From Bosea vaviloviae (GTDB lineage: Bacteria > Pseudomonadota > Alphaproteobacteria > Rhizobiales > Beijerinckiaceae): DNA of 64,000 bases. The position numbers and the translations under genes were made by a program. Location of the stretch: contig NZ_CP017147.1 in NCBI RefSeq assembly GCF_001741865.1, forward strand, positions 434,001 to 498,000, read 5' to 3'. Numbering within the stretch: position 1 is the stretch's first letter; the number at the start of each line of letters is the position of its first letter. Below the pieces are notes generated by a model. It was given only the letters and a program-made list of their open reading frames with translations, had not been told where the DNA came from and ran no database searches. This document shows, one piece after another, positions 45,878 through 62,383 of the stretch.

Positions 45878-47251
45878 TCAGGCTGCGGGAGCCAAGTTCG
45901 CTGGCTTTCGCGCCGTATCGGCTACAGCCTCGGCCATCCGCAGGGCCGCCTTGCGCTCGTCGATATAGTCGCGCGTCAAGGGAACGGCCTCCTGATGGCG
46001 CACGATCTGGAGCTGGAAGACGACGACGTCCTGATGCTCAAAAGCGGCCTGGCTCATCGCCAGATAGAACTCCCACATCAGGCAGAAGCGCTCGTCATAG
46101 AGCGCCAGCGCCTCCTCGCGGCGCGCCATGAAGCGCTCGCGCCAGGCCTGCAATGTCTTGGCGTAGTGCAGCCGCAGCACCTCGACATCGGTGACGATGA
46201 GCCCCGCCTTCTCGGCGGCGGGCAGGATTTCCGACAGGGCCGGCAGATAGCCGCCGGGAAAAATGTAGCGGTTCAGCCAGGGGTTGGGATGATTGGGGCC
46301 GTCCGAGCAGCCGATGGTGTGGAGCAGCATCACGCCGTCCTCGCTCAGCAGGCGCCGGCAGGTCTCGAAGAAGGCCGGGTAGAAGCGCGGGCCGATATGC
46401 TCGAACATGCCGACCGAGACGATGCGCTCGAAGACGCCGACGACATCGCGATAATCCTGCAGGGCAAAGCGCGCCCGCCCGCCGGCCCCGGAACGCTGCG
46501 CCCGCTCCTTGGCGACCGCGAGCTGCTCGCGCGACAGCGTCACACCCAAAGCCTCGCGGGCACGCGCGGTTTCCGTCAGATACAGGCACATGCCGCCCCA
46601 GCCGCAGCCGATGTCGAGGACGCGGTGCTCGGGCTCGACCAGGAGCTTGGCCGCGATATGCCGCTTCTTCGCCAGCTGGGCGTCATCGAGGCTCTGCTCC
46701 GGGTTCTCGAAATAGGCGCAGGAATATTGCCAGTCCGCGTCGAGGAAGAGCGCGTAAAGCCGGTCGTCGAGATCATAGTGATGCGCGACGTTCTCGCGCG
46801 AGCGACCGCGCGTATTGCGCGTGGTGAGATGGCGCAGCAGGAAGCGGCCATGATCGAGCGCCCGCTCCACGAGGCTGGACCAGTTTCCGATCCAATCGGA
46901 TCGTTCAACCGCTCCAGCTTTTTGTTTTGACGCGTTTTCTTCACGCGAACCGGTGTCCACTTCGCTCGAAAACACTCTCGCAGGCTGCCCCCGCGCGCCC
47001 GACAGGATCAGGGCCAGGAAACCATGGATCGTGCCCTGCTCGACCAGGAGCCGCCGATCCATGAAGAGCTCGCCGAGCTTCATCTCGGGATCGAGCAGGA
47101 AGGCCCATAAGGCCATCCTGTCGGCAAAGCGGACCTGCACCGGCGCGCCGGAACCGTCGCCGCAGCTGAACCTGCGGCCATCGGGCAGGACGACATGCAA
47201 TGTGCCGTGGACGACGAGCCGCGAAAGAACCGCTTGGAGAATTCGGAGCAT
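45878..47251 (-). CDS. cfa: Cyclopropane-fatty-acyl-phospholipid synthase with an in-frame repeat insertion
   Basis: 457 residues. The SAM-binding core is intact: VLDIGCGWGGMCLYL, GVTLSREQLAVAKER, VSVGMFEHIGPRFYPAFF and the late GGYLPALSEI. An unusual ~30-residue stretch (VFSSEVDTGSREENASKQK and onward) sits between the N-terminal domain and the methyltransferase domain and is encoded by a type B repeat. The ATG at 47251 has an AAGGGATCG site; longer starts have poor family support. It adds methylene bridges to unsaturated acyl chains of membrane lipids. Whether the enzyme still works is unknown. Confidence 0.85.
   Translation of the reverse strand: MLRILQAVLSRLVVHGTLHVVLPDGRRFSCGDGSGAPVQVRFADRMALWAFLLDPEMKLGELFMDRRLLVEQGTIHGFLALILSGARGQPARVFSSEVDTGSREENASKQKAGAVERSDWIGNWSSLVERALDHGRFLLRHLTTRNTRGRSRENVAHHYDLDDRLYALFLDADWQYSCAYFENPEQSLDDAQLAKKRHIAAKLLVEPEHRVLDIGCGWGGMCLYLTETARAREALGVTLSREQLAVAKERAQRSGAGGRARFALQDYRDVVGVFERIVSVGMFEHIGPRFYPAFFETCRRLLSEDGVMLLHTIGCSDGPNHPNPWLNRYIFPGGYLPALSEILPAAEKAGLIVTDVEVLRLHYAKTLQAWRERFMARREEALALYDERFCLMWEFYLAMSQAAFEHQDVVVFQLQIVRHQEAVPLTRDYIDERKAALRMAEAVADTARKPANLAPAA
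46889..46980. repeat. Type B repeat inserted in frame in cfa
   Basis: Landmarks CCGATCCAATCGGATCG, TTTGTTTTGACGC and CACGCGAACCGGTGTCCACTT match the intergenic element at 30351 with few differences. The insert adds codons without a stop in the cfa frame. It is a palindromic-repeat insertion into a gene, analogous to Rickettsia palindromic elements. Confidence 0.85.
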
Positions 47252-47666
47252 CGGCGATCCCTTGAGGCTGTAGAGCAGCTCTCGCACAGGCTGGATTGGG
47301 CGCAGGAGCCGGCCACCTGGCGCAGGAAACGTGCCAGGCCTGCCCGGTGTGTCTGCAGGCGTGATGAGCGAGAGGCCTCTGCCGGATCGACACCGGAAGT
47401 TGGCCGCCATATCCCGCGCTTTCCGGTCAGAATGGCGCTTTTCGGCCTGAAACAGCCGAGCAGACCGTGCCGCTGCGCGCCCCTGATCCAGGCCTCTTGA
47501 AGCGTCTGGCCGAGCGGGATGAAGCTCCATTTTTTGATGGAAACTCCAGGGCAGAGAGCTTTCGCCGTTCCCTAAAAATGGAAATACCAAGTTAAATCAA
47601 TAGATTGCATAATGGCACACCCCTTGCGCAGACGCTGCCGTCAACAATTTGGATCGGGCGTCAGCA
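47252..47666. promoter_or_regulatory. Divergent region with possible activator sites
   Basis: No gene in 415 bp. Beyond the sigma-54 promoter (47613-47627) it has TCCAT-N6-ATGGA (47526-47541) and a second ATGGAAA at 47578-47584, 41 bp from the first (47537-47543), about four helical turns. They are 30-90 bp upstream of the promoter and are candidate upstream activator sites. The cfa promoter should also lie here. Confidence 0.5.
47613..47627 (+). promoter_or_regulatory. Sigma-54 (RpoN) promoter of the phosphatase-aminotransferase operon
   Basis: TGGCACACCCCTTGC has the -24 GG and -12 GC elements with the correct five-base spacer between TGGCAC and TTGC (consensus TGGCACG-N4-TTGC; one difference). 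The predicted start is about 47639, giving a ~28-base leader to the ATG at 47667. Confidence 0.75.
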
Positions 47667-48362
47667 ATGGAATGGCAGGCCATCGTCGATTTCGACGGTA
47701 CGATCTCGTGTCAGGACACGACGGATCAGATCCTCGGGCGCTTCGCGGAGCCCGCCTGGCAGGAGATCGAACAGGACTGGATCGACGGCAAGATCGGGTC
47801 CCGCGAATGCATGAAGCGGCAGGTCGAGATGCTGCGGGTCTCGCCGGGCATGCTCGACAGCTTCATCGCGGATATCGAGATCGACTGGGATTTTCCCGCC
47901 TTCGTGCGGCTCTGCATGCGCCATGACATTCCGGTCACCGTCGTCTCCGACGGGCTCGACCGGACGATCAGGGCCGTGCTGAACCGCGCCGGGCTGGGCT
48001 TCCTGCCGATCGTCGCCAACCGTCTCGACTATGCCGGCGAAGGCCGCTGGCAGCTGACCTCGCCTTACGCCTCCACGACCGGCGGCTGCGACAGCGGCAC
48101 CTGCAAATGCGCCGTCACTGATAGCCTGCACCGGCCGCTGACCCTGCTCGTCGGCGACGGCAAGTCCGACCATTGCGTCGCCGGCCAGGCCGATCTCGTT
48201 TTCGCGAAGAAGGGCCTGATCGCCCATTGCCGCGACCAGGGGCTTCCCCACCACCCGTTCACCGACTTCTCCCAGGCCGTCGGCCTGCTCGAGGAGCTGC
48301 TATGCGCCACCGCCGCGAGCGGCCAGGCGCGCGAATTGACGAAGGATACGATCCATGGCTGA
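47667..48362 (+). CDS. HAD-IB family phosphatase (MtnX-like)
   Basis: 231 residues. DFDGTISCQDTTD carries the nucleophile Asp and TVVSDGLDRTIR plus LVGDGKSDHCVA complete HAD motifs II and III. The MtnX-like subfamily dephosphorylates small phosphorylated metabolites; no other methionine-salvage genes are nearby, so the substrate is probably pathway-specific. A CDS start at TTG 47649 would add six residues. It overlaps the aminotransferase by eight bases. Confidence 0.88.
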   Translation: MEWQAIVDFDGTISCQDTTDQILGRFAEPAWQEIEQDWIDGKIGSRECMKRQVEMLRVSPGMLDSFIADIEIDWDFPAFVRLCMRHDIPVTVVSDGLDRTIRAVLNRAGLGFLPIVANRLDYAGEGRWQLTSPYASTTGGCDSGTCKCAVTDSLHRPLTLLVGDGKSDHCVAGQADLVFAKKGLIAHCRDQGLPHHPFTDFSQAVGLLEELLCATAASGQARELTKDTIHG

Positions 48363-49800
48363 CGGCTACGCTCTGCTCGATACGCCCGCCCCTCAGGCGG
48401 TAACCCCGGCGCCCCTCTCGCATAGGGATGAGCAGGCCCGGCTGCTCGCGCTCGAGGCGCAGTATTGCTCCCATGGCGACACGGTCCACTACACGCAGTT
48501 CCCCAAGATCTTCTCGGGCTGCGAAGGCTCCTTCATGTTCGACGATGAGGGCAACCGCTTCCTCGACCTGCAGATGTGGTACTCGGCCGTCAATTTCGGC
48601 TACGCCAATCCCCGCCTGAACAACGCGCTGAAGCGCCAGATCGATACGCTGCCGCAGGTCGCCAGCCAGTATCTGCATCGCGAGAAGATCGAGCTCGCCG
48701 CGCTGATCGCCAGGGATGCCGAAGCCAAATTCGGCGAGAAGGGCCGCGTCCACTTCAATGTCGGCGGCGCCCAGGCCGTCGAGGATTCGCTCAAGCTCGT
48801 GCGCAATGCCTCAAACGGCAAGAGCCTGATGTTCGCCTTCGAGGGCGGCTATCACGGCCGCACGCTCGGCGCCTCGGCCATCACCTCGTCCTACCGCTAT
48901 CGCCGCCGCTTCGGCCATTTCGGCGAGCGCGCGCATTTCATCCCGTTCCCCTACCATTTCCGGGGAGCCAAGGGCATGAGCAAGGAGGAGTATGGCGAGC
49001 ACTGCGTGCAGCAGTTCGCTCGTCTCTTCGAGAGCGAATATAACGGCGTCTGGGATCCCAAGACCGGCCAGGCCGAATACGCCGCCTTCTATGTCGAGCC
49101 GCTGCAGGGCACCGGCGGCTACGTCATCCCGCCGAAGAACTTCTTCATCGGGCTGAAAAAAGTGCTCGACGACCACGGAATCCTGATGGTCGTCGACGAG
49201 ATCCAGATGGGCTTCTACCGGACCGGAAAATTGTGGTCGATCGAGCATTTCGGCGTCACGCCGGACGTGATCGTCTTCGGCAAGGCCGTGACCAACGGGC
49301 TGAACCCGCTCTCGGGCGTCTGGGCCAAGGAAAAGCTGATCAACCCGACGATCTTCCCGCCGGGCTCGACGCATTCGACCTTCAACGCCAATCCGCTGGG
49401 CACCGCGGTCGCGCTCGAGGCCATGAAGATGATGGCCGAGGACGATTACGAGACCATGGTCATGGAGAAGGGGGCCTATTTCCTCCGGGGCCTGGAAGAG
49501 CTCAAGCGCCGCCACAAGATCGTCGGCGACGTCGACGGGCTCGGCATGGCGCTGCGCATCGAGATCTGCGAGCCGCATGACAGCTACACGCCGTCGAAGC
49601 GGCTGGTCGACCTGATGTGCGACGAGGGCATGAAGGCCGATCTGGAGACGGATGGGAAACGCTACGGCCTCGTTCTCGACATCGGCGGCTACCACAAGAA
49701 CGTCATTACGCTGGCTCCCGCCCTGACCATGAGCCACGCCGAGATCGATCTGGCGATCAAGCTGCTCGACCAGCTGTTCACCCGCGTCGCAAACGCCTGA
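48355..49800 (+). CDS. Class III aminotransferase
   Basis: 481 residues. MFDDEGNRFLDLQMWYSAVNFGYANPRL, NVGGAQAVEDSLKLVRNA, VEPLQGTGGYVIPP and VVDEIQMGFYRTGKLWSIEHFGV mark the fold (first shown in part). The PLP Lys is in VFGKAVTNGLNPLSG. It resembles ornithine/acetylornithine-type or diaminobutyrate-type enzymes. It is only distantly like the class III enzyme at 31.5 kb. Translational coupling to the phosphatase indicates one pathway. Confidence 0.87.
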   Translation: MADGYALLDTPAPQAVTPAPLSHRDEQARLLALEAQYCSHGDTVHYTQFPKIFSGCEGSFMFDDEGNRFLDLQMWYSAVNFGYANPRLNNALKRQIDTLPQVASQYLHREKIELAALIARDAEAKFGEKGRVHFNVGGAQAVEDSLKLVRNASNGKSLMFAFEGGYHGRTLGASAITSSYRYRRRFGHFGERAHFIPFPYHFRGAKGMSKEEYGEHCVQQFARLFESEYNGVWDPKTGQAEYAAFYVEPLQGTGGYVIPPKNFFIGLKKVLDDHGILMVVDEIQMGFYRTGKLWSIEHFGVTPDVIVFGKAVTNGLNPLSGVWAKEKLINPTIFPPGSTHSTFNANPLGTAVALEAMKMMAEDDYETMVMEKGAYFLRGLEELKRRHKIVGDVDGLGMALRIEICEPHDSYTPSKRLVDLMCDEGMKADLETDGKRYGLVLDIGGYHKNVITLAPALTMSHAEIDLAIKLLDQLFTRVANA

Positions 49801-49818
49801 TATCCCCCGGAGGCGGCC

Positions 49819-50742
49819 TTGCGATTGCGCGTGATCGATCTCGACGGCAGCGTGGCGGCTCAGGAGCCGCTGCGCCGGCGCATCGATGCGGGAGCCGCCA
49901 CCCGCATCGATGCCGCCGATCTTGCCTCCTCGCTGCGGATTTTCGCCACCCGCGCCGCGATGGACAGATTCACCGGGCGCCTGCGCGACAGCGCGGCGCC
50001 CGGTGACGAGCCTTCCGTAACCTTTTACGGCTCCGGCGATTTCCACCACCTGACGGCAGGCCTGCTTGCCGATGTCAGGCGCGATATCAGCGTGATCCAT
50101 TTCGACAACCACCCCGACTGGGTGCGGTTTCCGCCGACCTTCAATTGCGGCGCCTGGGTCAACCGGGCGCTGGAGCTGCCCCATGTCAGGCGCGTGGTGA
50201 CGCTGGGCCCGTGCAGCGGCGACCTCGTCCGGCCCGAATTGCAGTTCGCCAACCTGCCGGCCCTGTCGCAGGGGCGTATCGAGCTTTATCCCTGGCGCCA
50301 CGCGCCGTCCCGCATCTGGGGCCGCTATCGCGACGGGCCGTCCCATCGCCAGGATCGCGGCCACCTGCATTGGCGCAATCTCGCCGATGAGCGCTGGGAC
50401 GGCTTTCTCGACGAGCTGATCGACAGGCTGCCGACGCAGGCCATCTGGATCACCATCGACAAGGATGTGCTCGGCGGCAGCGACGCCGTGACCAACTGGG
50501 ACCAGGGCGACATGCCGCTTAGCCAGCTGCTCCTGGCGGTCGAGCAGCTGGCCGAGCAGTGCGAGGTGCTCGGGATCGACGTCTGCGGCGACTATTCGGC
50601 TGCCGTCTTCTCCGACCCCTTGCGGGCGACATTGGCCTATTTCGACCATCCGCCGCACTTTTCGCCCTCAGTGGATGATCTGGCGATCAATGCGCAGGTC
50701 AACGCCGCCCTGCTGGGTTGTTTCGAGCGGGTGCTGTCATGA
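49819..50742 (+). CDS. Arginase/ureohydrolase-fold protein
   Basis: 307 residues from a TTG start behind GGAGG. Metal-ligand motifs survive: GSGDFHHLT, HFDNHPDW (D-x-H-x-D) and ITIDKDVLGGSD (D-x-D). These fit the two-Mn ureohydrolase/arginase or histone-deacetylase-like fold, acting on guanidino or amide substrates. The last ligand pattern and substrate loop differ from canonical arginase, so the reaction is unassigned. Confidence 0.78.
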   Translation: MRLRVIDLDGSVAAQEPLRRRIDAGAATRIDAADLASSLRIFATRAAMDRFTGRLRDSAAPGDEPSVTFYGSGDFHHLTAGLLADVRRDISVIHFDNHPDWVRFPPTFNCGAWVNRALELPHVRRVVTLGPCSGDLVRPELQFANLPALSQGRIELYPWRHAPSRIWGRYRDGPSHRQDRGHLHWRNLADERWDGFLDELIDRLPTQAIWITIDKDVLGGSDAVTNWDQGDMPLSQLLLAVEQLAEQCEVLGIDVCGDYSAAVFSDPLRATLAYFDHPPHFSPSVDDLAINAQVNAALLGCFERVLS

Positions 50743-51098
50743 GCCTGTCGCTGATCCTCTGGTTCGCCGTCTCCGTGATCTGCGACGTCGCCGGGCAGCT
50801 TTGCCTCAAGCGCGGCGCCGACAACCTGCCCGAGGTCCAGGGCCGCGAACTGGCCATGGCGCTGCTCTGCTCGGCCTGGGTCGCGGGCGGCGTCCTGATC
50901 TACATCGTCGAGATCTTCGTCTGGCTGCGCATCCTGGCGGAAGTCCCGCTCTCCATCGCCTTCCCGATCGCCAGCCTGAATTTCCTCGGCGTGACGCTCG
51001 CCAGCCATGTCTTCCTCAAGGAATCCGTCGGCCGCCTGCAATGGCTCGGCGCAATCCTAATCACCCTGGGCGTCGTCGTCGTCGCCCGCACAGCCTGA
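50739..51098 (+). CDS. Small EamA/SMR-type transporter, first of pair
   Basis: 119 residues, four membrane helices. DVAGQLCLKRGADNLPEVQ and VFVWLRILAEVPLSIAFPI match ArnE/F-type half transporters. Its ATG overlaps the ureohydrolase stop (ATGA). With the second SMR gene at 53126 it may form a heterodimer. Confidence 0.8.
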   Translation: MSLSLILWFAVSVICDVAGQLCLKRGADNLPEVQGRELAMALLCSAWVAGGVLIYIVEIFVWLRILAEVPLSIAFPIASLNFLGVTLASHVFLKESVGRLQWLGAILITLGVVVVARTA

Positions 51099-51108
51099 CG
51101 GAGCGACC

Positions 51109-51963
51109 GTGCCCCTCGCCGATCACAGCCTCCGCTTCTCCGGCAATCGCACCGGTTTCCTGCTCATCCATGGCCTGGGCGGAACGCCGGTGGAACTGCG
51201 CCTCGTCGCCCGGGCCCTGCATCGGATCGGCGGCCATACCGTGCATTGTCCGCAGCTCGCCGGCCATTGCGGCAGCGAGGCCGATCTGCTCGCGACGAAC
51301 TGGCAGGACTGGATCGCCAGCGTCGAAACCGCGCTCGACCGCATGAAGACGCAATGCGACACGATCATCATCGGCGGCCTGTCGATGGGCGCGGTGATGG
51401 CGATGTACATCGCCGCCAAGCGCCAGGATGATATCGCCGGCCTGGCGCTCTATGCGCCGACGCTCTGGTATGATGGCTGGTCGATCCCCTGGTACAGCTT
51501 CCTGCTCAAGCTGCTGATCGACACGCCGATGGGCCGCCGCTTCCGCTTCGTCGAGCGCGAGCCCTACGGCATCAAGGATCCGCGCATCCGCGCCATGATC
51601 GTGCATGCGATGGGGCGCGGTGACAGCGCCGTCGCCGGCCTGCTCGGGACGCCCTCGGGCGCGGTCAAGCAGATGTGGGGGCTGATCAGGGAAACCCGCC
51701 GCAGCATGGGCACGATCAGGCAGCCGGCCCTCATCGTGCATGCGCGCGAGGATGACGTCGCAAGCCTGGCCAACGCTATCCATATCCAGCGCCATCTCGG
51801 CGGGCTCGTCGACACGGTGGTGCTCGACGATTGCTACCATCTCGTCACGATCGACCGGCAGAACGACGTCGTCATCGAGCGGAGCCTGGGCCTCGCGCAG
51901 CGTCTCACGGCGGCCTTCGCCGCCAGGGGCAGCGCAGGCGCCTGCGCCGTCGCCGCCGAATGA
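51109..51963 (+). CDS. Alpha/beta hydrolase (carboxylesterase-like)
   Basis: 284 residues, GTG start after GGAG. Oxyanion-site HGLGGTP, nucleophile Ser in GGLSMGAVMAM, Asp in VHAREDDVAS and His in DDCYHLVTID give a complete triad. It resembles monoacylglycerol-lipase/esterase S33-type enzymes. A lipid or ester substrate is plausible from the context. Confidence 0.85.
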   Translation: MPLADHSLRFSGNRTGFLLIHGLGGTPVELRLVARALHRIGGHTVHCPQLAGHCGSEADLLATNWQDWIASVETALDRMKTQCDTIIIGGLSMGAVMAMYIAAKRQDDIAGLALYAPTLWYDGWSIPWYSFLLKLLIDTPMGRRFRFVEREPYGIKDPRIRAMIVHAMGRGDSAVAGLLGTPSGAVKQMWGLIRETRRSMGTIRQPALIVHAREDDVASLANAIHIQRHLGGLVDTVVLDDCYHLVTIDRQNDVVIERSLGLAQRLTAAFAARGSAGACAVAAE

Positions 51964-53129
51964 CCGCGCTGCGCGCCCATATCGCCCGTCGCGTCGCCGA
52001 GATCGACGCCACCGCCTGGGACGCGTGCTTCCCGGGCGAGGTGGAAAACCATGCCTATTACACCGCCTGCGAAACCGCCGCCTTGGTGAGCGGCGCGGAA
52101 CTCGTCACCTCCGCGGCCTCTGTCGAGCGCGATGGCGAGACGATCGCGGTCGCGCCGTTCTTCCTGATCGACTACCGGCTGGACACGCCACTGCAGGGGC
52201 CTCTGCGCGCGCTCGGCGATTATCTGTTCCGGCATGCACGGAAGCTCGTTTCGCTGCGGGTCCTGTGCATCGGCTCGCCCTATGCGGAGCGCTGCCATGT
52301 CGGCCTGTCCCCGCAGTTGGATGAACAGGCCCGGCAGCAGGCCCGGCTTGCCTTGCGGGAGGCGATCGACGCCCATGGCCGTGATGAAGGCGTCCACATC
52401 ATCGCCTGGAAGGATCTCGCGCCGGACGATGCCGAGGCCTTCCGCGACATCCTGAGGCATGACGGCTTCATCCGCCTCGGCAGCCTGCCCGTCGCGGTGC
52501 TCGATCTGCCCGCGAACGAGGCCGATTATCTCGCCACGCTCTCGACCGCGACGCGCAAGGATATCCGCCGCAAGCTCGCCAAGGCCGGGGATGTCAGGAT
52601 CGAGATGCGCCATTCGATCGCCGGCATCGAGGCCGAGATCGTCGCGCTCTACGAATCGACACGGGCGCAAAGCGGCCTCGACTATGGCGATCTCGAAAAG
52701 CTGCCGCCGGGCTACTTCTCCGGGATCACGGCAGCGCTGGGCGAACGGGCGCTGTTCGTCCTCTACTGGGTCGGGACGACGCTGGCCGCCTTCAACCTGC
52801 TGCTGATCGAGCGCGAGCGCGTCATCGATAAGTTTCTCGGCATGCGCTACCCGCTGGCGCGCGAGCACAACCTCTACGCCCTGAGCTGGATGACCAATGT
52901 CCGATATTGCCTCGCCCATGGCATCAGCCGGCTGCAGAGCGGGCAGACCGCCTATGCCTCGAAACTGCGCTTCGGCAGCCGGCTCGTGCCCTCGGTGATC
53001 TTCTTCCGGCACCGGCAAGGCGTGCTCAACTGGGCCCTGCGCTCGATCAGCCCCTATATCGCCTTCGACAGGCTCGACCCTGATCTGAAGGCCCATCGCC
53101 TCCAACAGCACGCGCAGTTGTCACCATGA
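51960..53129 (+). CDS. FemAB/BioF2-like GNAT acyltransferase
   Basis: 389 residues. The GNAT-like (Acetyltransf_6) core has LSTATRKDIRRKLAKAGDVRIE, LYESTRAQSGL and FLGMRYPLAREHNLYALSW. FemAB-like enzymes transfer aminoacyl or acyl groups to amine-bearing lipids or peptidoglycan precursors. ATG overlaps the hydrolase stop (ATGA). The donor and acceptor are unknown. Confidence 0.8.
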   Translation: MTALRAHIARRVAEIDATAWDACFPGEVENHAYYTACETAALVSGAELVTSAASVERDGETIAVAPFFLIDYRLDTPLQGPLRALGDYLFRHARKLVSLRVLCIGSPYAERCHVGLSPQLDEQARQQARLALREAIDAHGRDEGVHIIAWKDLAPDDAEAFRDILRHDGFIRLGSLPVAVLDLPANEADYLATLSTATRKDIRRKLAKAGDVRIEMRHSIAGIEAEIVALYESTRAQSGLDYGDLEKLPPGYFSGITAALGERALFVLYWVGTTLAAFNLLLIERERVIDKFLGMRYPLAREHNLYALSWMTNVRYCLAHGISRLQSGQTAYASKLRFGSRLVPSVIFFRHRQGVLNWALRSISPYIAFDRLDPDLKAHRLQQHAQLSP

Positions 53130-53536
53130 GCGCGACCGAAATGCCGTCGACCGGCGTGCCCTGGCGCATGATCGCGATCTGGACCCTGTTCATCGCGCTC
53201 GACACCGGCACGCAGCTCGCCTTCAAATGGGGGGCGGACGGGCTCGCCGATCTCGATTTCGGGCTGGCGATGATCTCCCGGGCCCTGACCCTGCCCGGCG
53301 TCTGGCTGGCGGCGCTCGGCTATGGCGGCACCTTCGTCGTCTGGATGATCATCCTGCGAACCACGCCACTGAGCCGGGCCTTCCCGATGACCGGTCTTGC
53401 CTATGTCACCGTGCCGCTGCTCGCCTGGGCGGTGCTCGGCGAGCGCATCAACCTCGTGCAGGCCGGCGGAATCGCCACGATCATCGCGGGCGTTCTTCTA
53501 CTGGGATCGGGAGAAACGGATGAGGACCATGCGTAG
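53126..53536 (+). CDS. Small EamA/SMR-type transporter, second of pair
   Basis: 136 residues, four membrane helices. FIALDTGTQLAFKWGADGL and PLSRAFPMTGLAYVTVPLLAW parallel the first SMR gene of the operon. Overlaps the acyltransferase stop by four bases. Two distinct SMR genes in one operon fit a paired EmrE/ArnEF-type membrane translocator. Confidence 0.8.
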   Translation: MSATEMPSTGVPWRMIAIWTLFIALDTGTQLAFKWGADGLADLDFGLAMISRALTLPGVWLAALGYGGTFVVWMIILRTTPLSRAFPMTGLAYVTVPLLAWAVLGERINLVQAGGIATIIAGVLLLGSGETDEDHA

Positions 53537-53954
53537 AGCTCTCTCCCTTGCCTCGGGCATCATCGCCACCCTGCTCTTCGCGCAGATCGCCATGGCGGAC
53601 TCGCTGACCGACATCATCGGCCGCTGGCGCGATTCCGATGGTGAATCCGAGATCGAGATCGCCCGCTGCGGCGCGGCCCTGTGCGGCACGATCGTCTGGC
53701 TCAAGCAGCCGCGCATCGATTCCGCCAACCCCAACGCCGCAAACCGCGGGCGCTCGCTGCTCGGCCTGCGCGTGCTCAGCGGCTTCAAGCCCGACCCCGC
53801 TGCTGCCACATTCAGCGGAGACGGCTATAACCCCGAGGACGGCCGCAGCTACAAGACCACGCTGGAGCTGAAATCGAAGACGACGCTCTCGATCAAAGGC
53901 TGCGTGATGGGCGGACTTATCTGCGATGACGACATCTGGACGAGGCGTCCATGA
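53520..53954 (+). CDS. DUF2147 family secreted protein
   Basis: 144 residues. Signal peptide (about 1-25) then IGRWRDSDGESEIEIARCGAALCGTIVWL, the DUF2147 opening with its Cys pair, and ending CVMGGLICDDDIW (fragment shown). GGGAG lies nine bases before the ATG; it overlaps the second SMR gene by 17 bases. Family role unknown, probably periplasmic. Confidence 0.85.
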   Translation: MRTMRRALSLASGIIATLLFAQIAMADSLTDIIGRWRDSDGESEIEIARCGAALCGTIVWLKQPRIDSANPNAANRGRSLLGLRVLSGFKPDPAAATFSGDGYNPEDGRSYKTTLELKSKTTLSIKGCVMGGLICDDDIWTRRP

Positions 53955-54017
53955 AGCAGCACGCCCTGCCGCTTTTCCGGCGCGCGGCCAGCGCAGCTAG
54001 CGCGGGATGATCGTCGC

Positions 54018-55766
54018 ATGATACCGGGCCGCATGACGACATTGAGACTGCGGCTGGTGATCGGCTTTCTGCTGGTCAGCGTGCCGGCGATGCTGGCTTC
54101 GGCCTATGTCGCCGCACGGCTGATCTCGAACGCCTTCGAAAGCAATGTCGAGCAATGGCTGGGTGAAACCTCGCGCTACTTCAAGCTGCAGGTGCGCGAG
54201 GCGACGCTTGAAGCACAGCGCGTCGCGAGCGTGATCGCGCAACGCCTCGAAACCGTGACCGAAGACGAGTTGCGGCATCCCACGATCCTCGAAAACGACC
54301 TCGCCGTCCTGAACTCGGTTGGCTACGATCTGATCGCGATCTACACCGACGAGCATGAGATGCTCTACGCCTCGCGCAACATCGTGGCCGCGGACGCGTT
54401 GCCGAGGCGGACCGTGCAGGGCATCTTCAAGATCGAGACCGACGGCAAGCACTACATCATGGCCGGCGCCGTCCAGACCGTGAAACTGCTCGGCAAGACG
54501 GCGCATGTGATCGTCGGCACCTGGCTCGACGACCAGTATCTCGGCGGCATCAAGGTCGTGACATCGCTCGATGTCAGGCTCTTCGCCGACACCGGCAATG
54601 GCTTCGAGCCGATCCTGCTGACCCATCCTGCCGGCGCAGCCCGACCGGTTCCCCAGGCGATCCGTGACAAGCTCGAATCCGGCGCCAGGACGATCTTCGA
54701 CAACGAGGCCGATGAAGGCGCCTATCGCGCGATCTATACCGGCTTTCGCGGCATTGACGGCAAGCTCGTCGCCGTCGCCTTCATCGGGCTGACCAGCCGG
54801 GCCGGCTTCTTCGAGCAGATCGGCCGCTGGCGGCTTTTCGTCGGCATCTTCCTGTTCGGCTCCGCGCTCGCCATCATCGTCGGCGTCGCGATGTCGGGCA
54901 TCCTGGTCAAGCCGCTGCGAGCGCTGACGCGCGGCGTCAGATCGATCACCGCGGGCGACTACAAGCAGCGCGTGCCAGCCCAAGGGGGGCGCGAGATCGC
55001 CGAACTGGCGACCGGGTTCAACATCATGGCCGAGCAGCTCGGCAAGGTTCAGGCCCTGGAGGCCGAATTGCGCCGGCGCGACCGCTTCTCGGCGCTGGGA
55101 CAGGCGGCGATGGTGATCGCGCATGAGGTGCGCAATCCGCTCGGCATCATCAAGACCTCGACCGAGGTCGTGCGCAACCGGGCCAAGCTCGGCCCCTCCG
55201 AGGATCGCATGCTCGGCTACATCATCGACGAGGTCCGCCGCATCGAGACCCTGGTGCGCGATTTCCTCGATTTCGCCCAGCCCAAGGAACCGAGCAAATC
55301 GGTGTTCCTGCTGCGCTCGGTGATCGACCGGGTCGCATCCTTCGCCGCGCCGGAGCTGGCCAAGCGCCATATCGCCCTCGATATCCAGGATGAGAGCAAC
55401 GGCGCGCTGATCTCGGGTGATCCCGATCAGCTCCACCAAGCCTGTCTCAACCTCGTGCTCAACGCCATGGATGCGATGTCCGCGGGCGGTACGATCACCG
55501 CAAGCCTCACTGTCGAGGACACGCAAGCCTCGCTGACGATTTCCGACAGCGGGCCCGGCATTCCCCCCGCCATCATCGGCCAGATCTTCAACCCGTTCTT
55601 CACCACCAAGGCCAAGGGCACGGGCCTGGGCCTCGCCAAGGTGCTCTCCGTCGCCGCCGCCCATGGCGGAACGGCGCATTGCGCGAGTAGGGAAGGACAA
55701 GGCGCCTCCTTCACCATCGCCTTGCCCGTCGCCCCGCCCGATGCCCTGCCCAGGATCGCCTCATGA
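54018..55766 (+). CDS. Sensor histidine kinase (partner of NtrC-type regulator)
   Basis: 582 residues. Two membrane helices (about 12-32 and 275-296) bracket a ~240-residue periplasmic sensor domain. HAMP follows, then HisKA with His in MVIAHEVRNPLGIIKTS (~369) and HATPase with ISDSGPGIPP and GTGLGLAKVLS. It senses an unknown envelope signal, plausibly the operon's product. It overlaps the regulator gene by four bases. Start could be the Met five codons later. Confidence 0.9.
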   Translation: MIPGRMTTLRLRLVIGFLLVSVPAMLASAYVAARLISNAFESNVEQWLGETSRYFKLQVREATLEAQRVASVIAQRLETVTEDELRHPTILENDLAVLNSVGYDLIAIYTDEHEMLYASRNIVAADALPRRTVQGIFKIETDGKHYIMAGAVQTVKLLGKTAHVIVGTWLDDQYLGGIKVVTSLDVRLFADTGNGFEPILLTHPAGAARPVPQAIRDKLESGARTIFDNEADEGAYRAIYTGFRGIDGKLVAVAFIGLTSRAGFFEQIGRWRLFVGIFLFGSALAIIVGVAMSGILVKPLRALTRGVRSITAGDYKQRVPAQGGREIAELATGFNIMAEQLGKVQALEAELRRRDRFSALGQAAMVIAHEVRNPLGIIKTSTEVVRNRAKLGPSEDRMLGYIIDEVRRIETLVRDFLDFAQPKEPSKSVFLLRSVIDRVASFAAPELAKRHIALDIQDESNGALISGDPDQLHQACLNLVLNAMDAMSAGGTITASLTVEDTQASLTISDSGPGIPPAIIGQIFNPFFTTKAKGTGLGLAKVLSVAAAHGGTAHCASREGQGASFTIALPVAPPDALPRIAS

Positions 55767-57142
55767 CGCATACGATCCTGGTCGTCGATGACGAGACCCG
55801 CCTCGCCGATGTGCTGACCGCTGCGCTGGAGGATTTCGGCTACCGTGCCATCGCGGCCGAAAGCGCCACGGACGCGCTCGCGATCCTCGACCGGGAGCGG
55901 ATCGACCTCGTCCTGACCGATCTGCGCCTGCCGGGCATGGACGGCCGGACCCTGATGCGCGAGGTGCGCCGGCGCTGGCCCGACATCCCGGTGGTGATGA
56001 TCACCGCTTTCGCCGCGGTGCGCGACGCTGTCGAGCTCGTCAAGGAAGGCGCCTTCGACTACATCGCAAAGCCCTTCGAGATCGACGATGTCGCGGCGAC
56101 GATCGGCCGGGCGCTGCGCCTGAGCGAGGTCGTGCGTGACAATGAGCGCCTGCGCACCGAGCTCGAGGGCCGCTACAGCTTCGAGAACCTGATCGGCAAC
56201 AGCCCGCCCTTTCGCAGGGTGATCGAGCAGGTCACCGAGGTCTGCGAGACGCGCGCCACCGTGATGCTCAATGGCGAGAGCGGGACCGGCAAGGAGGTGG
56301 TGGCGCGCGCCATCCACTTCAACAGCCCCCGGCGCAAGCGCCCTTTCGTCGCGGTCAATTGCGCGGCGATCCCCGAGGCTTTGCTTGAAAGCGAGCTGTT
56401 CGGCCACGTCAAGGGCGCCTTTACCGGCGCGCTCGCCAACCGGGTCGGGCGTTTCGCCGCCGCCGATGGCGGCACGCTGTTTCTCGATGAGATCGGCGAT
56501 ATGCCGATCGCGATCCAGGCCAAGCTGCTGCGCGTCATCCAGGAGCGCAGCTTCGAGCCCGTCGGCGGCAATCAGAGCCAGACCGTCGATGTCCGCATCA
56601 TCGCAGCGACCCATAAGGATCTGCGCCAGGCCGTGGCGGGAAACCAGTTTCGCGAGGATCTGTATTACCGCCTCAACGTCTTCCCGATCCAGCTGCCGGC
56701 CCTGCGCGAGCGGCGCGAGGACATCGCGATCCTGGCCGCGCATTTCCTGCGCCTGTTGGCCGAAAGCGTCGGCAAGCGCGTCATCGGCTTCACGCCCGGC
56801 GCACTCTCGGCAATGAGCGGCTATGCCTGGCCCGGCAACATCCGGGAGCTGCAGAACTGCGTCGAGCGGGCCGTCATCGTCGCGAAATCGCCGACGATCG
56901 ATGCACCCGATCTGCCGCGCGACCTGTTCGACGCCCCGGCGCGCCAGCGCGAGCCCGACGATCCGCCCACTGATCTCGACGCGGAGCTCGAGCACATCGA
57001 ACGGCGCTTCATCATCGAGGCCCTGCGCCGCACCGATGGCAAGCAGGTCCTGGCGGCGCAGCTGCTGGGGATCGCCGAACGCAGCCTCTGGCATCGCATC
57101 AAGAAGCTCGACATCAAGGTCAATCGCCGCGTCGCCGAATGA
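55763..57142 (+). CDS. NtrC-family sigma-54-dependent response regulator
   Basis: 459 residues. Receiver Asp53 in VLTDLRLPGMDG; AAA+ domain with Walker A GESGTGKEV and the sigma-54 contact loop GAFTGA (about residue 217); C-terminal Fis-type helix-turn-helix (VLAAQLLGIAERSLWHRIKK). It must work at RpoN promoters, and the only one I find nearby is at 47613, ahead of the biosynthetic operon. Confidence 0.93.
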   Translation: MTHTILVVDDETRLADVLTAALEDFGYRAIAAESATDALAILDRERIDLVLTDLRLPGMDGRTLMREVRRRWPDIPVVMITAFAAVRDAVELVKEGAFDYIAKPFEIDDVAATIGRALRLSEVVRDNERLRTELEGRYSFENLIGNSPPFRRVIEQVTEVCETRATVMLNGESGTGKEVVARAIHFNSPRRKRPFVAVNCAAIPEALLESELFGHVKGAFTGALANRVGRFAAADGGTLFLDEIGDMPIAIQAKLLRVIQERSFEPVGGNQSQTVDVRIIAATHKDLRQAVAGNQFREDLYYRLNVFPIQLPALRERREDIAILAAHFLRLLAESVGKRVIGFTPGALSAMSGYAWPGNIRELQNCVERAVIVAKSPTIDAPDLPRDLFDAPARQREPDDPPTDLDAELEHIERRFIIEALRRTDGKQVLAAQLLGIAERSLWHRIKKLDIKVNRRVAE

Positions 57143-57238
57143 GGCTCATGCAAGGACTGAGGCCCATGCAAGGGAAGACGTTGGCCCGAGGGCGCCGATG
57201 TGTCATGCCCCTAGCGAAGTGTTTCGGGAGTTTTCCGC

Positions 57239-58063
57239 TTGGCTCGTTTACCATTGCCGATGGCCTTGCTGGCTGGCCTCTGCGCCACGATGAGCGGCGC
57301 GCATGCGGCCGATCCCGTGACCCCGGTCCTCAATCCCGAGCCCGCCTCCGGCTGGATCGTCTCGCTCGGCGGCTCCAGTCAGATCGGCCCGAAATATGAT
57401 GGCGCGAGCAAGGCCGGCTTGTCCGGCATGCCCTCGATCAGCTGGCGCCGTGCCGGCGAGGACGCCGGCTTCAGCAGCCCTGATGACGGGCTCGACTACG
57501 CGCTTTACGAGACCAAGACCTTCAGCTTCGGCCCTGTCGCCAGCTTCCGCTCCGGCCGCTACAGCGGCACCGACGTCAAGCTCAACGGCCTGAGGGACGT
57601 GCCCTGGACGATCGAGGCCGGCGCCTTCGCCGAGTTCTGGCCGATCCAGGACCGCCTGCGCACGCGCATCGAGATCCGCCAGGGCTTCCACGGCCATCAC
57701 GGCGTCGTCGCCGATCTCTCAGTGGATTGGGTCGAGAAATTCGGCGCCTTCACGCTTTCGGGCGGGCCGCGGCTTTCGCTCGGCGACAAGGCCTTCATGC
57801 GCAAGAATTTCGGCGTCAGCGCAGGCGAAGCCGCAGCGAATGGCTGGCTGACAGCATACCGCCCGCAAGGTGGCCTCAAATCGGCCGGCGTCGGCGCGGC
57901 GCTCGACTACGAATGGTCCCAGTCCTGGACGACGACCACCTTCGTCAAATATGAGCGGCTGCTCGATTCCGCCGACACCTCTCCGATCGTCCGCGTGCTG
58001 GGGCAGCGCGACCAGGTGACCTTCGGCCTGGGCGCGACCTATTCGTTCAAGGTCGGCGGCTGA
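57239..58063 (+). CDS. MipA/OmpV family outer-membrane protein
   Basis: 274 residues from a TTG start with GGGAG nine bases upstream; ATG at 57260 is an alternative. A signal peptide (LLAGLCATMSGAHA) leads a beta-barrel repeat pattern, with SLGGSSQIGPKYDGA and GLGATYSFKVGG typical of MipA/OmpV. Its genes often adjoin two-component systems, as here. Confidence 0.85.
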   Translation: MARLPLPMALLAGLCATMSGAHAADPVTPVLNPEPASGWIVSLGGSSQIGPKYDGASKAGLSGMPSISWRRAGEDAGFSSPDDGLDYALYETKTFSFGPVASFRSGRYSGTDVKLNGLRDVPWTIEAGAFAEFWPIQDRLRTRIEIRQGFHGHHGVVADLSVDWVEKFGAFTLSGGPRLSLGDKAFMRKNFGVSAGEAAANGWLTAYRPQGGLKSAGVGAALDYEWSQSWTTTTFVKYERLLDSADTSPIVRVLGQRDQVTFGLGATYSFKVGG

Positions 58064-58644: not shown

Positions 58645-59059
58645 CTGCCAATACTATCCTAAATCAATGACTTACAAAAAGGTTCGCCAAAAAAAGTGCA
58701 CTACCTGTTCCCGTCGTTGGCCATCGGCATCGGACGTTCGCCACAGCGGGGTGGTGCCCCTGGCCGGGGAACCTCAATCGGCCGATTCAACGCTTTAGCG
58801 GGCAATGAGAAATAGAAAACCGTCGCGTCGCTTTGTTGATTTTTCGATGGGTCACTTTCCCACTTTCACGCCGACCAATGGGATTCCCGATCGCGGAATC
58901 GTATCCAGCACGTCAGCTTGGAAGCGGTACCAACTCGCCGACGGCGAACAGCGCGATCCCCGAACCAGTATCGCAACAAGACCAGGAATGGACCTCATCG
59001 CTACAGGGGCCTTGCCTTCCTTCACTTTGCTACCGTAGCGTGCACCCAGGGAGAGATGC
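58645..59059. other. Island left non-coding region
   Basis: 415 bp without a convincing gene. It should hold the promoter of the ATPase gene; GGGAGAG precedes its ATG. A minus-strand ORF here has no recognisable similarity. Confidence 0.4.
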
Positions 59060-61402
59060 ATGGCTATAAAAAACAGCAAGAAATTCTTCGCGTATCCGGG
59101 GATGCCTTCGGACCTCACATCTACAATCGCAGCCGCCGCAGAAGGATACCTACTTCGGAACAAAAGGTCGGTCCAAACGTGGCCCCAATTGCCCGTTTTC
59201 GGCGCATATATTCCTGACACGATTCGCGAAGCGATCGAGTCCAGTGACGTAGTTTTCGCAGATATAACGGTTGCTAATTACAATGTTTATTACGAAATCG
59301 GCTTCGCGATTGGTCGCGGTAAGATTGTCGCACCTGTATTAAACGCATCTTTTGCAAATGCCAGCGAAAAAATACAACAGGACGGTGTGTTCGATAACAT
59401 CGGCTACCGGTCCTACAAAAATTCCGAAGACCTGATTGGAATACTCTCAACGCCTCCCGATAACCGGCTCCTGACCCTTTATGAGAAGGAACTCAATTCA
59501 GATCAGCCGTTGTTTCTTATGGACGCGTTGATCAAAACAGATTTTCGAAATCTGGTTGCAGGCGCCGTCAAGGACAGCGGCGTTTTCTTCCGAAGCTTTG
59601 ATCCCGAGGAAATTCCGCGCTTCCAAACGGTTAAGGCGATTACCGACGTGACCTCGTCGTCGGGCGTTATCATCACGATCTTGGCGGCCCATATCGTTGA
59701 TGCTGAGCGCCACAATCTAAGAAGCGCGATCCTAGCCGGTATTTCGCACGGCCTGGGCCGAGCGACTTTGTTGCTAAAGGACGCACCCCTTCCGGCTCCA
59801 CTGCCAGCAGACTATCGTGATGACGTTCAGACAATAACGCAACCCTCCGATGTGGTCTCTACCGTCAAACAGTTCTCAAGTCAGGCAATATACGGGACTC
59901 AGACGATCCAGAAAGCTGGCGTTCGCGCCGAACGAACAAGCCTGCAGCGCCTTGAGTTGGGTGCATCTTCGGCAGAAAATGAGTTTAGGACGCTCCAGCA
60001 ATATTTCGTCGAAACATCTGAGTTCCAAAAAACGCTTCGCGGCGAGATCAACGTGGTCGCGGGGCGAAAAGGGTCGGGGAAGACCGCAATATTTTTCAGA
60101 GTGCGAGATATCGTAAGAGAGCAAAAGAACACGATCGTTGTTGATCTAAAGCCTGAATCGCATCAGCTCAGCTACTTTAGATCCGAGCTCATGAAAACGC
60201 TCGACGCGGGCGTTCTGGATCACACTATAGCAGCATTTTGGTATTTTGTAATTCTCACCGAGCTTCTATTAGTGCTTCATCGGGATTACAAATTTAGGTC
60301 TAAATTCAATGATAATGCTTTGTCAGCAGAGGCCCGTATAGGACGAGTATTAGGAAAATTTGGAATCGATCAAGAAGGCGATTTCTCCATCCGACTAAAA
60401 AAGTTAGGCGCCCTCATATTGATCGAGATCGAGAAAGAGTCGTCTCGCGGTAAAACAATTTCGGCAGAAATGATTACTGGGATCGTGTTCCGCGCAGGGA
60501 TCAACGAAGTCAAATCTACGCTGATCGATGAGACCACGGTAAATACGAAATTTCTATTCCTTTTTGACAATTTAGATAAGGGATGGCCGGCTGATGGCGT
60601 CGACGCTTTCGACATCAGAATGGTGCGATTGCTCGTTGAAAACCTCGATAAAGTGCGGCGCGATTTCTTGGTCGCTGATCGCGATCTGAATACTGTGGTC
60701 TTCCTCAGAAACGACGTTTACGAGTTAATGGTCGATGATACCCCTGACAGGCAGAAGTCGGGGCATGTTAGGATCGACTGGACGGATACTACCAAACTTC
60801 GACAGATAATTTACTTCCGGCTAAAGGCCTCGGCTATGAAGCAGTCCGCCGCAAAAGGGAATCAAAACTTCGAACAATTGTGGAACGCTCATTTCGATCC
60901 GATTGCGGCGGGGATGAATAGTTTTGAATATCTAGTGAAGCATTGTGCAATGCGGCCGCGATTCCTGATCAATATCGTCGAAGCGGCCATTTCCCATGCG
61001 ATCAATCGACAGCACCAAAAAGTCGACGAGGATGACTGCATCGAGGCAGTTCGCTTGCACTCGCTCTATCTGATGAATGAGTTCGGATATGAGATACGGG
61101 ATGTATCGAAGCTGCCCGCTAACATACTTTCAGCGCTAGTCGGGCTTGGTGCGCTTGTTACCAAGGACGAGATTATCTCACGCTTCGTTGTAAGACGTAA
61201 TCTTTCCTCGTCGGACGCGGATCTCGGCTTCAAGCTAATGTTATGGTATGGCTTGCTTGGCGTAATTAACAGCTCCGGCAAAACAAAGTACATATATGAT
61301 TTCGACTACAATCGAACGCGCTTCGAAGCTGAGATTCAGAACGTCGATGACGAGCCGCTATACGAGCTAAATCCTGGACTGCACGTTGGATTGGTAAGCT
61401 GA
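59060..61402 (+). CDS. TIR/deoxyribosyltransferase-like domain plus P-loop ATPase (Sll1717-like), candidate defence protein
   Basis: 780 residues. Residues 1-110 resemble TIR or nucleoside 2-deoxyribosyltransferase-like domains (VVFADITVANYNVYYEIGFAI, with probable catalytic Glu). A second, degenerate copy follows (~200-250: TILAAHIVDAERHNLRSAIL). The ATPase part has Walker A VVAGRKGSGKTAIFF (~335-343) and Walker B FLFLFDNLDKGWP (~500), as in Sll1717-type P-loop ATPases found in phage-defence islands. Such fusions likely couple target sensing by the ATPase to NAD or nucleotide cleavage. Base composition is clearly more AT-rich than the rest of the window. Confidence 0.8.
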   Translation: MAIKNSKKFFAYPGMPSDLTSTIAAAAEGYLLRNKRSVQTWPQLPVFGAYIPDTIREAIESSDVVFADITVANYNVYYEIGFAIGRGKIVAPVLNASFANASEKIQQDGVFDNIGYRSYKNSEDLIGILSTPPDNRLLTLYEKELNSDQPLFLMDALIKTDFRNLVAGAVKDSGVFFRSFDPEEIPRFQTVKAITDVTSSSGVIITILAAHIVDAERHNLRSAILAGISHGLGRATLLLKDAPLPAPLPADYRDDVQTITQPSDVVSTVKQFSSQAIYGTQTIQKAGVRAERTSLQRLELGASSAENEFRTLQQYFVETSEFQKTLRGEINVVAGRKGSGKTAIFFRVRDIVREQKNTIVVDLKPESHQLSYFRSELMKTLDAGVLDHTIAAFWYFVILTELLLVLHRDYKFRSKFNDNALSAEARIGRVLGKFGIDQEGDFSIRLKKLGALILIEIEKESSRGKTISAEMITGIVFRAGINEVKSTLIDETTVNTKFLFLFDNLDKGWPADGVDAFDIRMVRLLVENLDKVRRDFLVADRDLNTVVFLRNDVYELMVDDTPDRQKSGHVRIDWTDTTKLRQIIYFRLKASAMKQSAAKGNQNFEQLWNAHFDPIAAGMNSFEYLVKHCAMRPRFLINIVEAAISHAINRQHQKVDEDDCIEAVRLHSLYLMNEFGYEIRDVSKLPANILSALVGLGALVTKDEIISRFVVRRNLSSSDADLGFKLMLWYGLLGVINSSGKTKYIYDFDYNRTRFEAEIQNVDDEPLYELNPGLHVGLVS

Positions 61403-61407
61403 AACGC

Positions 61408-61437
61408 AAAAGGGCCGTGTTGAGCGGCCCTTTTTAT
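61408..61437 (+). terminator. Terminator of the island ATPase gene
   Basis: AAAAGGGCCG pairs with CGGCCCTTTT around a TGTTGAG loop and ends in a T-run, six bases after the stop. Confidence 0.9.
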
Positions 61438-61786
61438 TTATCGCTATTGCTGACGTATGGAATGAGTTCACATGCTCGCCTCGGCAACTAGCGGTCACAA
61501 TCTGCGCTCGGAACACAGATGCTTGATGCGGTTTCTAGCTGATGAGGCTGCTCTTGACAACCGTTATCTCTCCCTCAGCGCGATTCGTCCGGAACGCAGC
61601 GTTACCCTAACGCTGAAAAACTTATGAATAGCTGTGACATGCACAAGACGCGCGATGATGCCGTGAACTCCGCCGAAATGCCCGACGAAAGCGCGTGCCA
61701 GGCGCGGGCCCTTAAACGCGATCCGGATGTTCTCCGACGCCGGAGCTCGATCCAATTGGCTCTCAGCCTACCGGCTAGTTCCCTTG
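61438..61786. other. Island right non-coding region
   Basis: 349 bp, lower GC toward the terminator. No gene or clear repeat seen; only short open frames without similarity. Confidence 0.4.
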
Positions 61787-61893
61787 TCAATCTATCCTGC
61801 TGACGAGGACCTTATCGACGCGGCGGCCATCAAGGTCGACCACCTCATAGCGCCAGTGGCCCTTCTCGAAACTCTTGCCGACCGCCGGGAGAC
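61787..61893 (-). pseudogene. C-terminal fragment of a CorC/TlyC-type gene
   Basis: One frame reads SRLPAVGKSFEKGHWRYEVV then DLDGRRVDKVLVSRID and stop, the conserved end of HlyC/CorC transporter-associated domains. No upstream part exists in the window. The fragment merges with the integrase remnant in another frame near 61890. Confidence 0.7.
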
Positions 61894-62228
61894 GGCTTTG
61901 CCGCAGCCAGCACCTCCCGATAGTAGCCCATCGCTAACCGTTCCAGATCGGCCCTGCTCAGCTCACTGAGATCACGGTGCGCCAGCTTCGCTGCGGATCG
62001 AAGCTCGGTGAAGCGGTCCATGATAGCCGGCACCTGCTCATCACGGCGGCGGAGTGCTTCGGCGCGATCCGACGTGCCGAGGCTCTTCAATGTTTTCGAC
62101 GTGCCGTAGGTCCGAGCGTAGGCCACGGCAACATCCTTCGGAACCCGGATGTTCAGGTAAAACATCCCCTGTTTGCCACGACGCCACAGCTTCACGGACG
62201 TGCGTTCCCCGCGCATGTTGTGTTGCAC
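61845..62228 (-). pseudogene. Tyrosine integrase, N-terminal remnant
   Basis: 127 codons. NIRVPKDVAVAYARTYGTSKT and LKSLGTSDRAEALRRRDEQV match the N-terminal (DUF6538/AP2-like) arm-binding part of phage integrases. The catalytic domain with R-H-R-Y is absent; the reading frame ends in CorC/TlyC DNA. It lies directly beside the tRNA target, as an integrase should. Confidence 0.75.

Positions 62229-62306: not shown

Positions 62307-62383
<77 letters not shown>

Follow-up and report, generated by a model that had tools for sequence, protein, structure and literature searches.

The gene cluster described here lies within a 64-kb stretch of the 6.71-Mb genome of Bosea vaviloviae (contig NZ_CP017147.1, positions 434,001 to 498,000), hereafter the window, to which all coordinates refer. 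Eight tightly packed genes run along the forward strand in the order HAD-AT3-ARG-SMR1-EST-FEM-SMR2-DUF2147, with junctions of -8, +18, -4, +10, -4, -4 and -17 bp, and are followed by HK, NTRC and MipA/OmpV. The first gene encodes an MtnX-like HAD-IB phosphatase (HAD, 47667–48362) that scores above the TIGR01489 cut-off and carries the conserved motif residues, and the second a class III aminotransferase (AT3, 48355–49800; PF00202) whose pyridoxal phosphate lysine is probably K310. They precede a divergent arginase-fold binuclear-metal hydrolase (ARG, 49819–50742), recognized from its fold model and motifs; an ArnE/F-like small membrane transporter half (SMR1, 50739–51098); an alpha/beta hydrolase akin to monoacylglycerol lipases (EST, 51109–51963; nucleophile S92); a tandem-GNAT, Fem/MprF-type transferase (FEM, 51960–53129; PF04339); a second ArnE/F-like half (SMR2, 53126–53536), identified like the first by profile matches; and a DUF2147 protein (53520–53954; PF09917) with a hydrophobic N-terminal segment and a probable periplasmic location. 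Downstream, family matches confirm a HAMP sensor histidine kinase with two hydrophobic segments (HK, 54018–55766) and a response regulator that combines a receiver, a sigma-54 AAA+ domain (Sigma54_activat) with GAFTGA and a Fis-type helix-turn-helix in one protein (NTRC, 55763–57142). The last gene encodes a MipA/OmpV outer-membrane protein (57239–58063; PF06629).

The initial annotation had placed this gene run behind a sigma-54 promoter, and all parts of that arrangement are present. The -24/-12 element TGGCACACCCCTTGC (47613–47627, forward strand) is the sole exact match to TGGCAC-N5-TTGC in the 64 kb. Sites with at most one mismatch number eight, against a shuffle mean of 3.98, and at least eight occurred in 5 of 100 shuffles. 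The genome contains one rpoN match above cut-off.

Comparative analysis was based on 108 stretches, six of which had no HAD (L043, L073, L074, L076, L133, L145) and were left out, giving 102 counted loci. Loci L046 to L125 were found with an AT3 probe and ordered by their similarity to the window, and AT3 presence there is by construction. Three probable duplicates (L126, L129 and L136, of L047, L054 and L056, respectively) stay in the counts of promoters, 17-bp dyads, FEM/ARG co-occurrence and dyad-promoter pairs; together with L127, they were left out of the count of other neighbour families and of the phasing and Pseudomonas-consensus tests. Promoters were scored over 220 bp before HAD in 101 loci (maximum score 22), and an NtrC gene was called linked when it lay at most 9.5 kb from HAD, a limit that misses L137. 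A score of at least 20 was reached by 47 of the 51 NtrC-linked loci, the window included, versus 2 of the 50 unlinked ones (L122 and L135), whose contigs both end before the regulator. At the looser score of 19, the proportions were 51/51 and 6/50.

A second element follows the same division. The 17-bp dyad GCTMCAAAATTTKKAGC occurs upstream of HAD with at least 14 matching positions in 44 of 50 linked loci versus 3 of 49 unlinked loci, namely L122, L135 and L137, the last with its NtrC gene beyond the distance limit. Spacing between dyad and promoter takes twelve distinct values between 68 and 111 bp in 44 loci, and these values are helically phased (R 0.74; p 0.00075 versus uniform spacings). 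Since the consensus had been drawn from the scored loci themselves, the alphaproteobacterial loci were rescored with a consensus derived from Pseudomonas only. At least 11 of 15 positions then matched in 25/25 linked loci, the window included, versus 5/44 unlinked loci, among them L135 and L137; the sites lie at 67–92 bp in 24 of the 25 linked loci and at 173 in L040. The window's own candidate activator dyad (upstream activating sequence, 47524–47540) retains an intact GCTCCAT half and a degenerate right half, and scores 11/17. Its distance of 89 bp to the -24 element is the one usual in Bosea. The site overlaps the region 47526–47584 named in the initial annotation and matches the Pseudomonas-derived consensus at 11/15, a value equalled by none of 60 shuffles. 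Locus L155, which was fetched for another purpose and scored last, has a promoter of 20.5, a dyad of 15/17 and a spacing of 82.

The HK/NtrC pair is thus genetically tied to a phased dyad and a sigma-54 promoter, and the earlier proposal that it regulates the operon is borne out in silico. Judged from these sequence patterns, the operon is almost certainly under dedicated sigma-54/NtrC control. A scan of the loci for dyad plus promoter returned 57 pairs, of which 52 precede HAD and four precede a GSAM-type aminotransferase gene (L040, L141, L142 and L144, four of the six loci having that gene). Because the same dyad and promoter precede it, the replacement aminotransferase shares the switch. 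The remaining pair, before the NtrC gene of L049, was taken as chance. The strict pattern occurs in 2 of 41 genus genomes, once in each and both times before the operon; one match was placed by coordinates and the other because it is identical to the sequence upstream in L048. Neither G052 nor the degenerate site of the window is picked up by this pattern. In the loci scanned, dyad and promoter precede this pathway and almost nothing else. A search for a wider regulon with a relaxed dyad in the Bosea genome was uninformative, with 92 matches versus 520 for the reversed control.

In many clusters that lack NtrC, a regulator (22 loci) and a kinase (25 loci) of OmpR type are found. Such clusters (L041, L042 and about 20 others among L045–L099) have neither the dyad nor the sigma-54 promoter, and perhaps represent the same pathway under a different switch.

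Conserved gene order elsewhere had been set beforehand as a test of the initial annotation, and it was found in other genera and families. An AT3 scan with one genome per species returned at least 573 relatives, and among the best 80, which were kept, the closest cluster-bearing loci are from Bosea; near relatives of ARG likewise carry Bosea names. The cluster, in this or a variant form, is also found in Camelimonas, Microvirga, Rhizobium, Caulobacter, Roseomonas, Pseudomonas and Xanthomonas. Among plasmid records, Agrobacterium has an unchanged gene order, Rhizobium an inserted desaturase and Aureimonas a GSAM-type gene where AT3 would stand; Roseomonas, Bartonella and Xanthomonas provide further variants. 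AT3 is 72–74% identical to the cluster copies of Rhizobium, Bartonella, Xanthomonas and Agrobacterium. In a midpoint-rooted FastTree phylogeny, read without regard to supports, the Bartonella plasmid AT3 groups with Lysobacterales, which suggests transfer. That plasmid (L043) has AT3-FEM-ARG beside an MBOAT gene and an AlgX-like gene. Among 289 class-wide genomes, an AT3 orthologue was found only in the Bosea genome itself and in one other (L155), so the pathway is patchy; the 19.5 kb examined in L155 contain HAD, AT3, EST, HK and NtrC, with FEM, ARG and SMR not found. Recurrence is nonetheless far beyond chance, since gene order is kept across genera and families, and promoter and dyad track the linked NtrC.

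The 102 loci also separate core from optional genes. EST is lacking only from L106 and L108, both truncated near a contig end, and is present in the other 100. The aminotransferase is AT3 in 94 loci and GSAM-type in six, never both, and two loci have neither. FEM and ARG occur together in 71 loci, FEM alone in six, ARG alone in none and neither in 25, some of which lie on cut contigs. Near HAD are also SMRs (78 loci), MipA (47), CFA synthase (30), DUF2147 (24), a desaturase (19), a DevC-like permease (16), KAS (11) and a DegT aminotransferase (4). Sixteen other families recur in at least five loci each; inspection of the sequences by eye points to ABC ATPases, HlyD-like adaptors, a kinase and regulator of OmpR type, and local neighbours, and no tRNA synthetase or further biosynthetic gene was seen among the sequences of these 16 families. 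Six Pseudomonas loci (L102, L105, L109, L111, L114 and L124) keep HAD, AT3, EST, the SMR pair, MipA and HK-NtrC, and have no FEM or ARG within about 21 kb, so that the product of related strains may come with or without a cap.

The dependence of ARG on FEM extends to whole genomes. A FEM search of 149 family genomes matched 25, and in 20 of these the E value was no higher than 5.4e-73. Separate searches of the same 149 placed AT3 (threshold E 1e-150) in 13 and ARG (threshold E 1e-15) in 18, and every one of these genomes belongs to the 20; hypergeometric overlaps, uncorrected for kinship, are 5e-14 for AT3 and 3e-21 for ARG. AT3 lies on the FEM contig in each of its 13 genomes and ARG in 17 of its 18, the exception being G106, where ARG is on another draft contig. 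Two of the 20 FEM genomes (G031 and G075) have no ARG.

A sequence search of the PDB with FEM gave three matches at E 0.016–0.036, taken as chance, and a structure model was used for that reason. The model (pLDDT 94.5) shows a tandem GNAT fold along most of its length, and its nearest folds are Sba18, FemA and FemX, then MprF, with acyl-CoA-type GNATs at lower Z. Besides PF04339, FEM matches PF13480. At 389 residues, it has no N-terminal flippase domain fused to the synthase.

For ARG, the model (pLDDT 94.3) has the ureohydrolase fold, PF00491 is matched by 24/24 members, and all six metal ligands are kept in 72/72 copies. Identified by motif, the column expected for arginase Glu277 would be that of Gly257, with D/E258 beside it, in 72/72 copies, the HMMER alignments ending just before this point; the place of Glu277 is presumably next to acidic residue 258. 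The motifs GSGDxHH, DNHPD, DKDVL and TNWDQG stand instead of the GGDHS, DAHxD and SxDxDxxDP of conventional arginases, as given in an excerpt of PMC10028609. The same excerpt describes the peptide arginase OspR, in which Glu277 is replaced and most residues binding the arginine backbone are missing. Matches to the UPF0489 profile of that group (PF12640) stay at noise level for ARG, with 7/24 members at E up to 1 and a best value of 0.067. Proclavaminate amidinohydrolase is among the folds nearest to the model. ARG exists only where FEM exists, which is most simply explained if ARG acts on arginine attached by FEM.

The remaining enzymes can be placed by family. In at least 101 of 102 copies, HAD has intact DFDGT, SDG and GDGxSD residues, and it passes only the MtnX-like subfamily (TIGR01489) and HAD-IB models; against the methionine-salvage MtnX equivalog it scores 82.4 bits of the 303.2 required. 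The substrate of AT3 is not readable from solved relatives, as many activities lie at similar distance. EST, which resembles monoacylglycerol lipases, has a serine nucleophile in 84 and a cysteine in 24 of 113 copies. The cysteine variant (L041, L077, L079 and other Rhizobium and Caulobacter loci) is confined to loci without linked NtrC, where 32 other copies retain serine, and 17 of the 24 have a desaturase. Three AT3 loci in which no HAD was found (L073, L074 and L076) hold several EST-like genes, including four copies with glycine or alanine at the nucleophile position. Both SMR halves fall below their NCBIfam cut-offs (SMR1 58.8 versus 92 bits for ArnE, SMR2 47 versus 99 bits for ArnF).

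These observations are consistent with the following sequence of steps. AT3 would aminate a phosphorylated ketone and HAD would remove the phosphate, giving an amino-alcohol; by analogy with known serinol routes, dihydroxyacetone phosphate and serinol may be guessed as substrate and product, though this choice is rather unlikely to be the right one. EST would handle an acyl group on the amino-alcohol core. FEM would then attach an amino acid, with arginine the most economical candidate, using aminoacyl-tRNA as donor; this step is more likely than not. An aminoacyl-tRNA enzyme can deliver arginine, not ornithine, and ARG may remove the amidino group from the attached arginine to leave ornithine; this trimming is more tentative, and we put it somewhat short of an even chance. 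The SMR pair, like ArnE/ArnF, would flip the cationic lipid outwards. The lipid nature of the product is suggested, by analogy, by the ArnE/F-like SMRs, the lipid-modifying neighbours and the Dev-type exporters, with SMR and Dev matches below curated cut-offs. Gene content, regulatory sites and folds come from computation, and it is the substrates and the lipid that we infer. Taken with these steps, the reading of the operon as a dedicated, signal-inducible unit making an envelope lipid that bears an amine and is exported has a probability of roughly 0.45; that the product is an exported amine-bearing lipid of some kind is probable. The initial suggestion of synthesis and flipping of an amine-containing lipid stands as the best reading, in its lipid and substrates an unproven one.

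FEM could instead be an acyl-CoA- or acyl-ACP-dependent (acyl carrier protein) N-acyltransferase acting on the amine made by AT3, with ARG an amidohydrolase working elsewhere and a lipid without an amino-acid cap. KAS and ACP genes in several clusters, the shared fold of acyl-CoA-type tandem GNATs and the PF13480 match are all compatible with this. However, the top-scoring folds for FEM are tRNA-dependent transferases, KAS is missing from the surroundings of HAD in 69 of 77 FEM loci, and the dependence of ARG on FEM would be left without a reason; we regard this alternative as improbable, if the strongest of the competitors. Slightly less likely still is a small diffusible amine metabolite, either a signal or an antibiotic, exported by the SMR, MipA and Dev-type proteins. 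Such a product would suit the action of the Fem-type Sba18/Sbb17 on streptothrisamine, the nearness of proclavaminate amidinohydrolase to ARG, and a patchy, partly plasmid-borne distribution, but CFA synthase, the desaturase, the lipase-like partners and the ArnE/F-like SMRs indicate a lipid, and DevABC systems export lipids. A catabolic operon scavenging nitrogen from an amine, which sigma-54/NtrC control (common for such operons) and the aminotransferases and arginase-fold enzymes of amine catabolism might suggest, is very improbable given a conserved order without an uptake system (the amino-acid transporters beside the Pseudomonas loci being local neighbours), the biosynthetic look of the Fem-like transferase, SMR pair and lipid enzymes, and a switch that is cluster-specific in the loci scanned.

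The envelope-lipid operon differs from known systems in several respects. Compared with the aminoacyl-phosphatidylglycerol synthases MprF/LpiA, FEM has no fused flippase and is accompanied by the SMR pair instead; the acceptor is apparently made by AT3/HAD, and an arginase-fold enzyme follows. The aminoacyl-tRNA-dependent FemA, FemX and Sba18 are the best fold matches of FEM over most of its chain, at 12–17% identity, whereas the acceptor here is, by context, neither peptidoglycan nor streptothrisamine. The ArnE/ArnF flippase of 4-amino-4-deoxy-L-arabinose-lipid A likewise consists of paired, related SMR halves, while SMR1 and SMR2 stay below the curated cut-offs and no ArnA, ArnC or ArnT was seen among the cluster's recurring neighbours. 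Proclavaminate amidinohydrolase serves clavulanate synthesis, and we know of no flippase pair or Fem-type partner for it. Peptide arginases (OspR, PF12640) share with ARG the arginase fold, an intact metal site and altered motifs, yet GSGDxHH, DNHPD and TNWDQG differ, and the partner is a transferase, not a ribosomally synthesized and post-translationally modified peptide; as far as the excerpt of PMC10028609 goes, action on conjugated arginine is shown for OspR and here only proposed for ARG. In serinol synthesis (RtxA; Cj1437 with Cj1435), dihydroxyacetone phosphate is transaminated, and Cj1435 is the Campylobacter HAD phosphatase, according to excerpts of PMC3222319 and PMC11800397; the likeness to AT3/HAD is proposed by analogy, with the substrate a guess. 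Part of another source (PMC2922099) mentions tRNA-dependent ligases and arginase in other operons. The initial annotation had recognized no described pathway with this gene set, and no description of it, or of the proposed chemistry, was found in the open-licence literature searched. Each part comes from a known family; what appears to be new, as far as that literature shows, is their combination, the switch and the dependence of ARG on FEM.

Around the operon, the divergent CFA synthase gene noted earlier was recovered at 45878–47251 on the reverse strand. It is a possible accessory gene and lies inside the operon in Rhizobium. A weak -24/-12 site with one mismatch (47322–47336, reverse strand) is found about 70 bp upstream of it, but CFA as an assured regulon member was rejected as unproven, given this single mismatched and non-conserved site: where CFA diverges from HAD, a score of at least 19 upstream of CFA is seen only in L058, with 16.5 in L056, 14.5 in L135 and 15.0 in L138. 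The CFA protein contains a 34-residue in-frame insertion (about 46876–46978), missing from five aligned homologues. In a search of the genome, 74 of 84 CFA matches fall on the insertion part, some with stops; the insertion is a dispersed repeat inside a coding gene. Further downstream, a low-GC block (59000–62000, 46–54%) lies beside a tRNA-Arg(CCT) at 62307–62383 on the reverse strand. Its 780-residue gene (59060–61402) has only weak AAA, deoxyribosyltransferase and TIR-effector matches, and the block is possibly an integrated element or a defence gene.

Combined, the proposals would describe a new class of envelope aminolipid in alpha- and gammaproteobacteria, with Fem-type addition of arginine to an amino-alcohol lipid, a dedicated arginase-fold enzyme yielding ornithine, and its own sigma-54 two-component switch; in this full form, the idea is a doubtful one. 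If true, bacteria would have one more pathway, besides the few already known, for making their surface more positively charged, in genera associated with soil and plants, Bosea, Rhizobium and Pseudomonas among them; a tRNA route would serve to install an amino acid that tRNA does not carry. FEM-ARG coupling offers a testable case of arginine serving as masked ornithine outside peptides. The dyad and sigma-54 signature provides a marker for members of the regulon, one that has already revealed the replacement aminotransferase.

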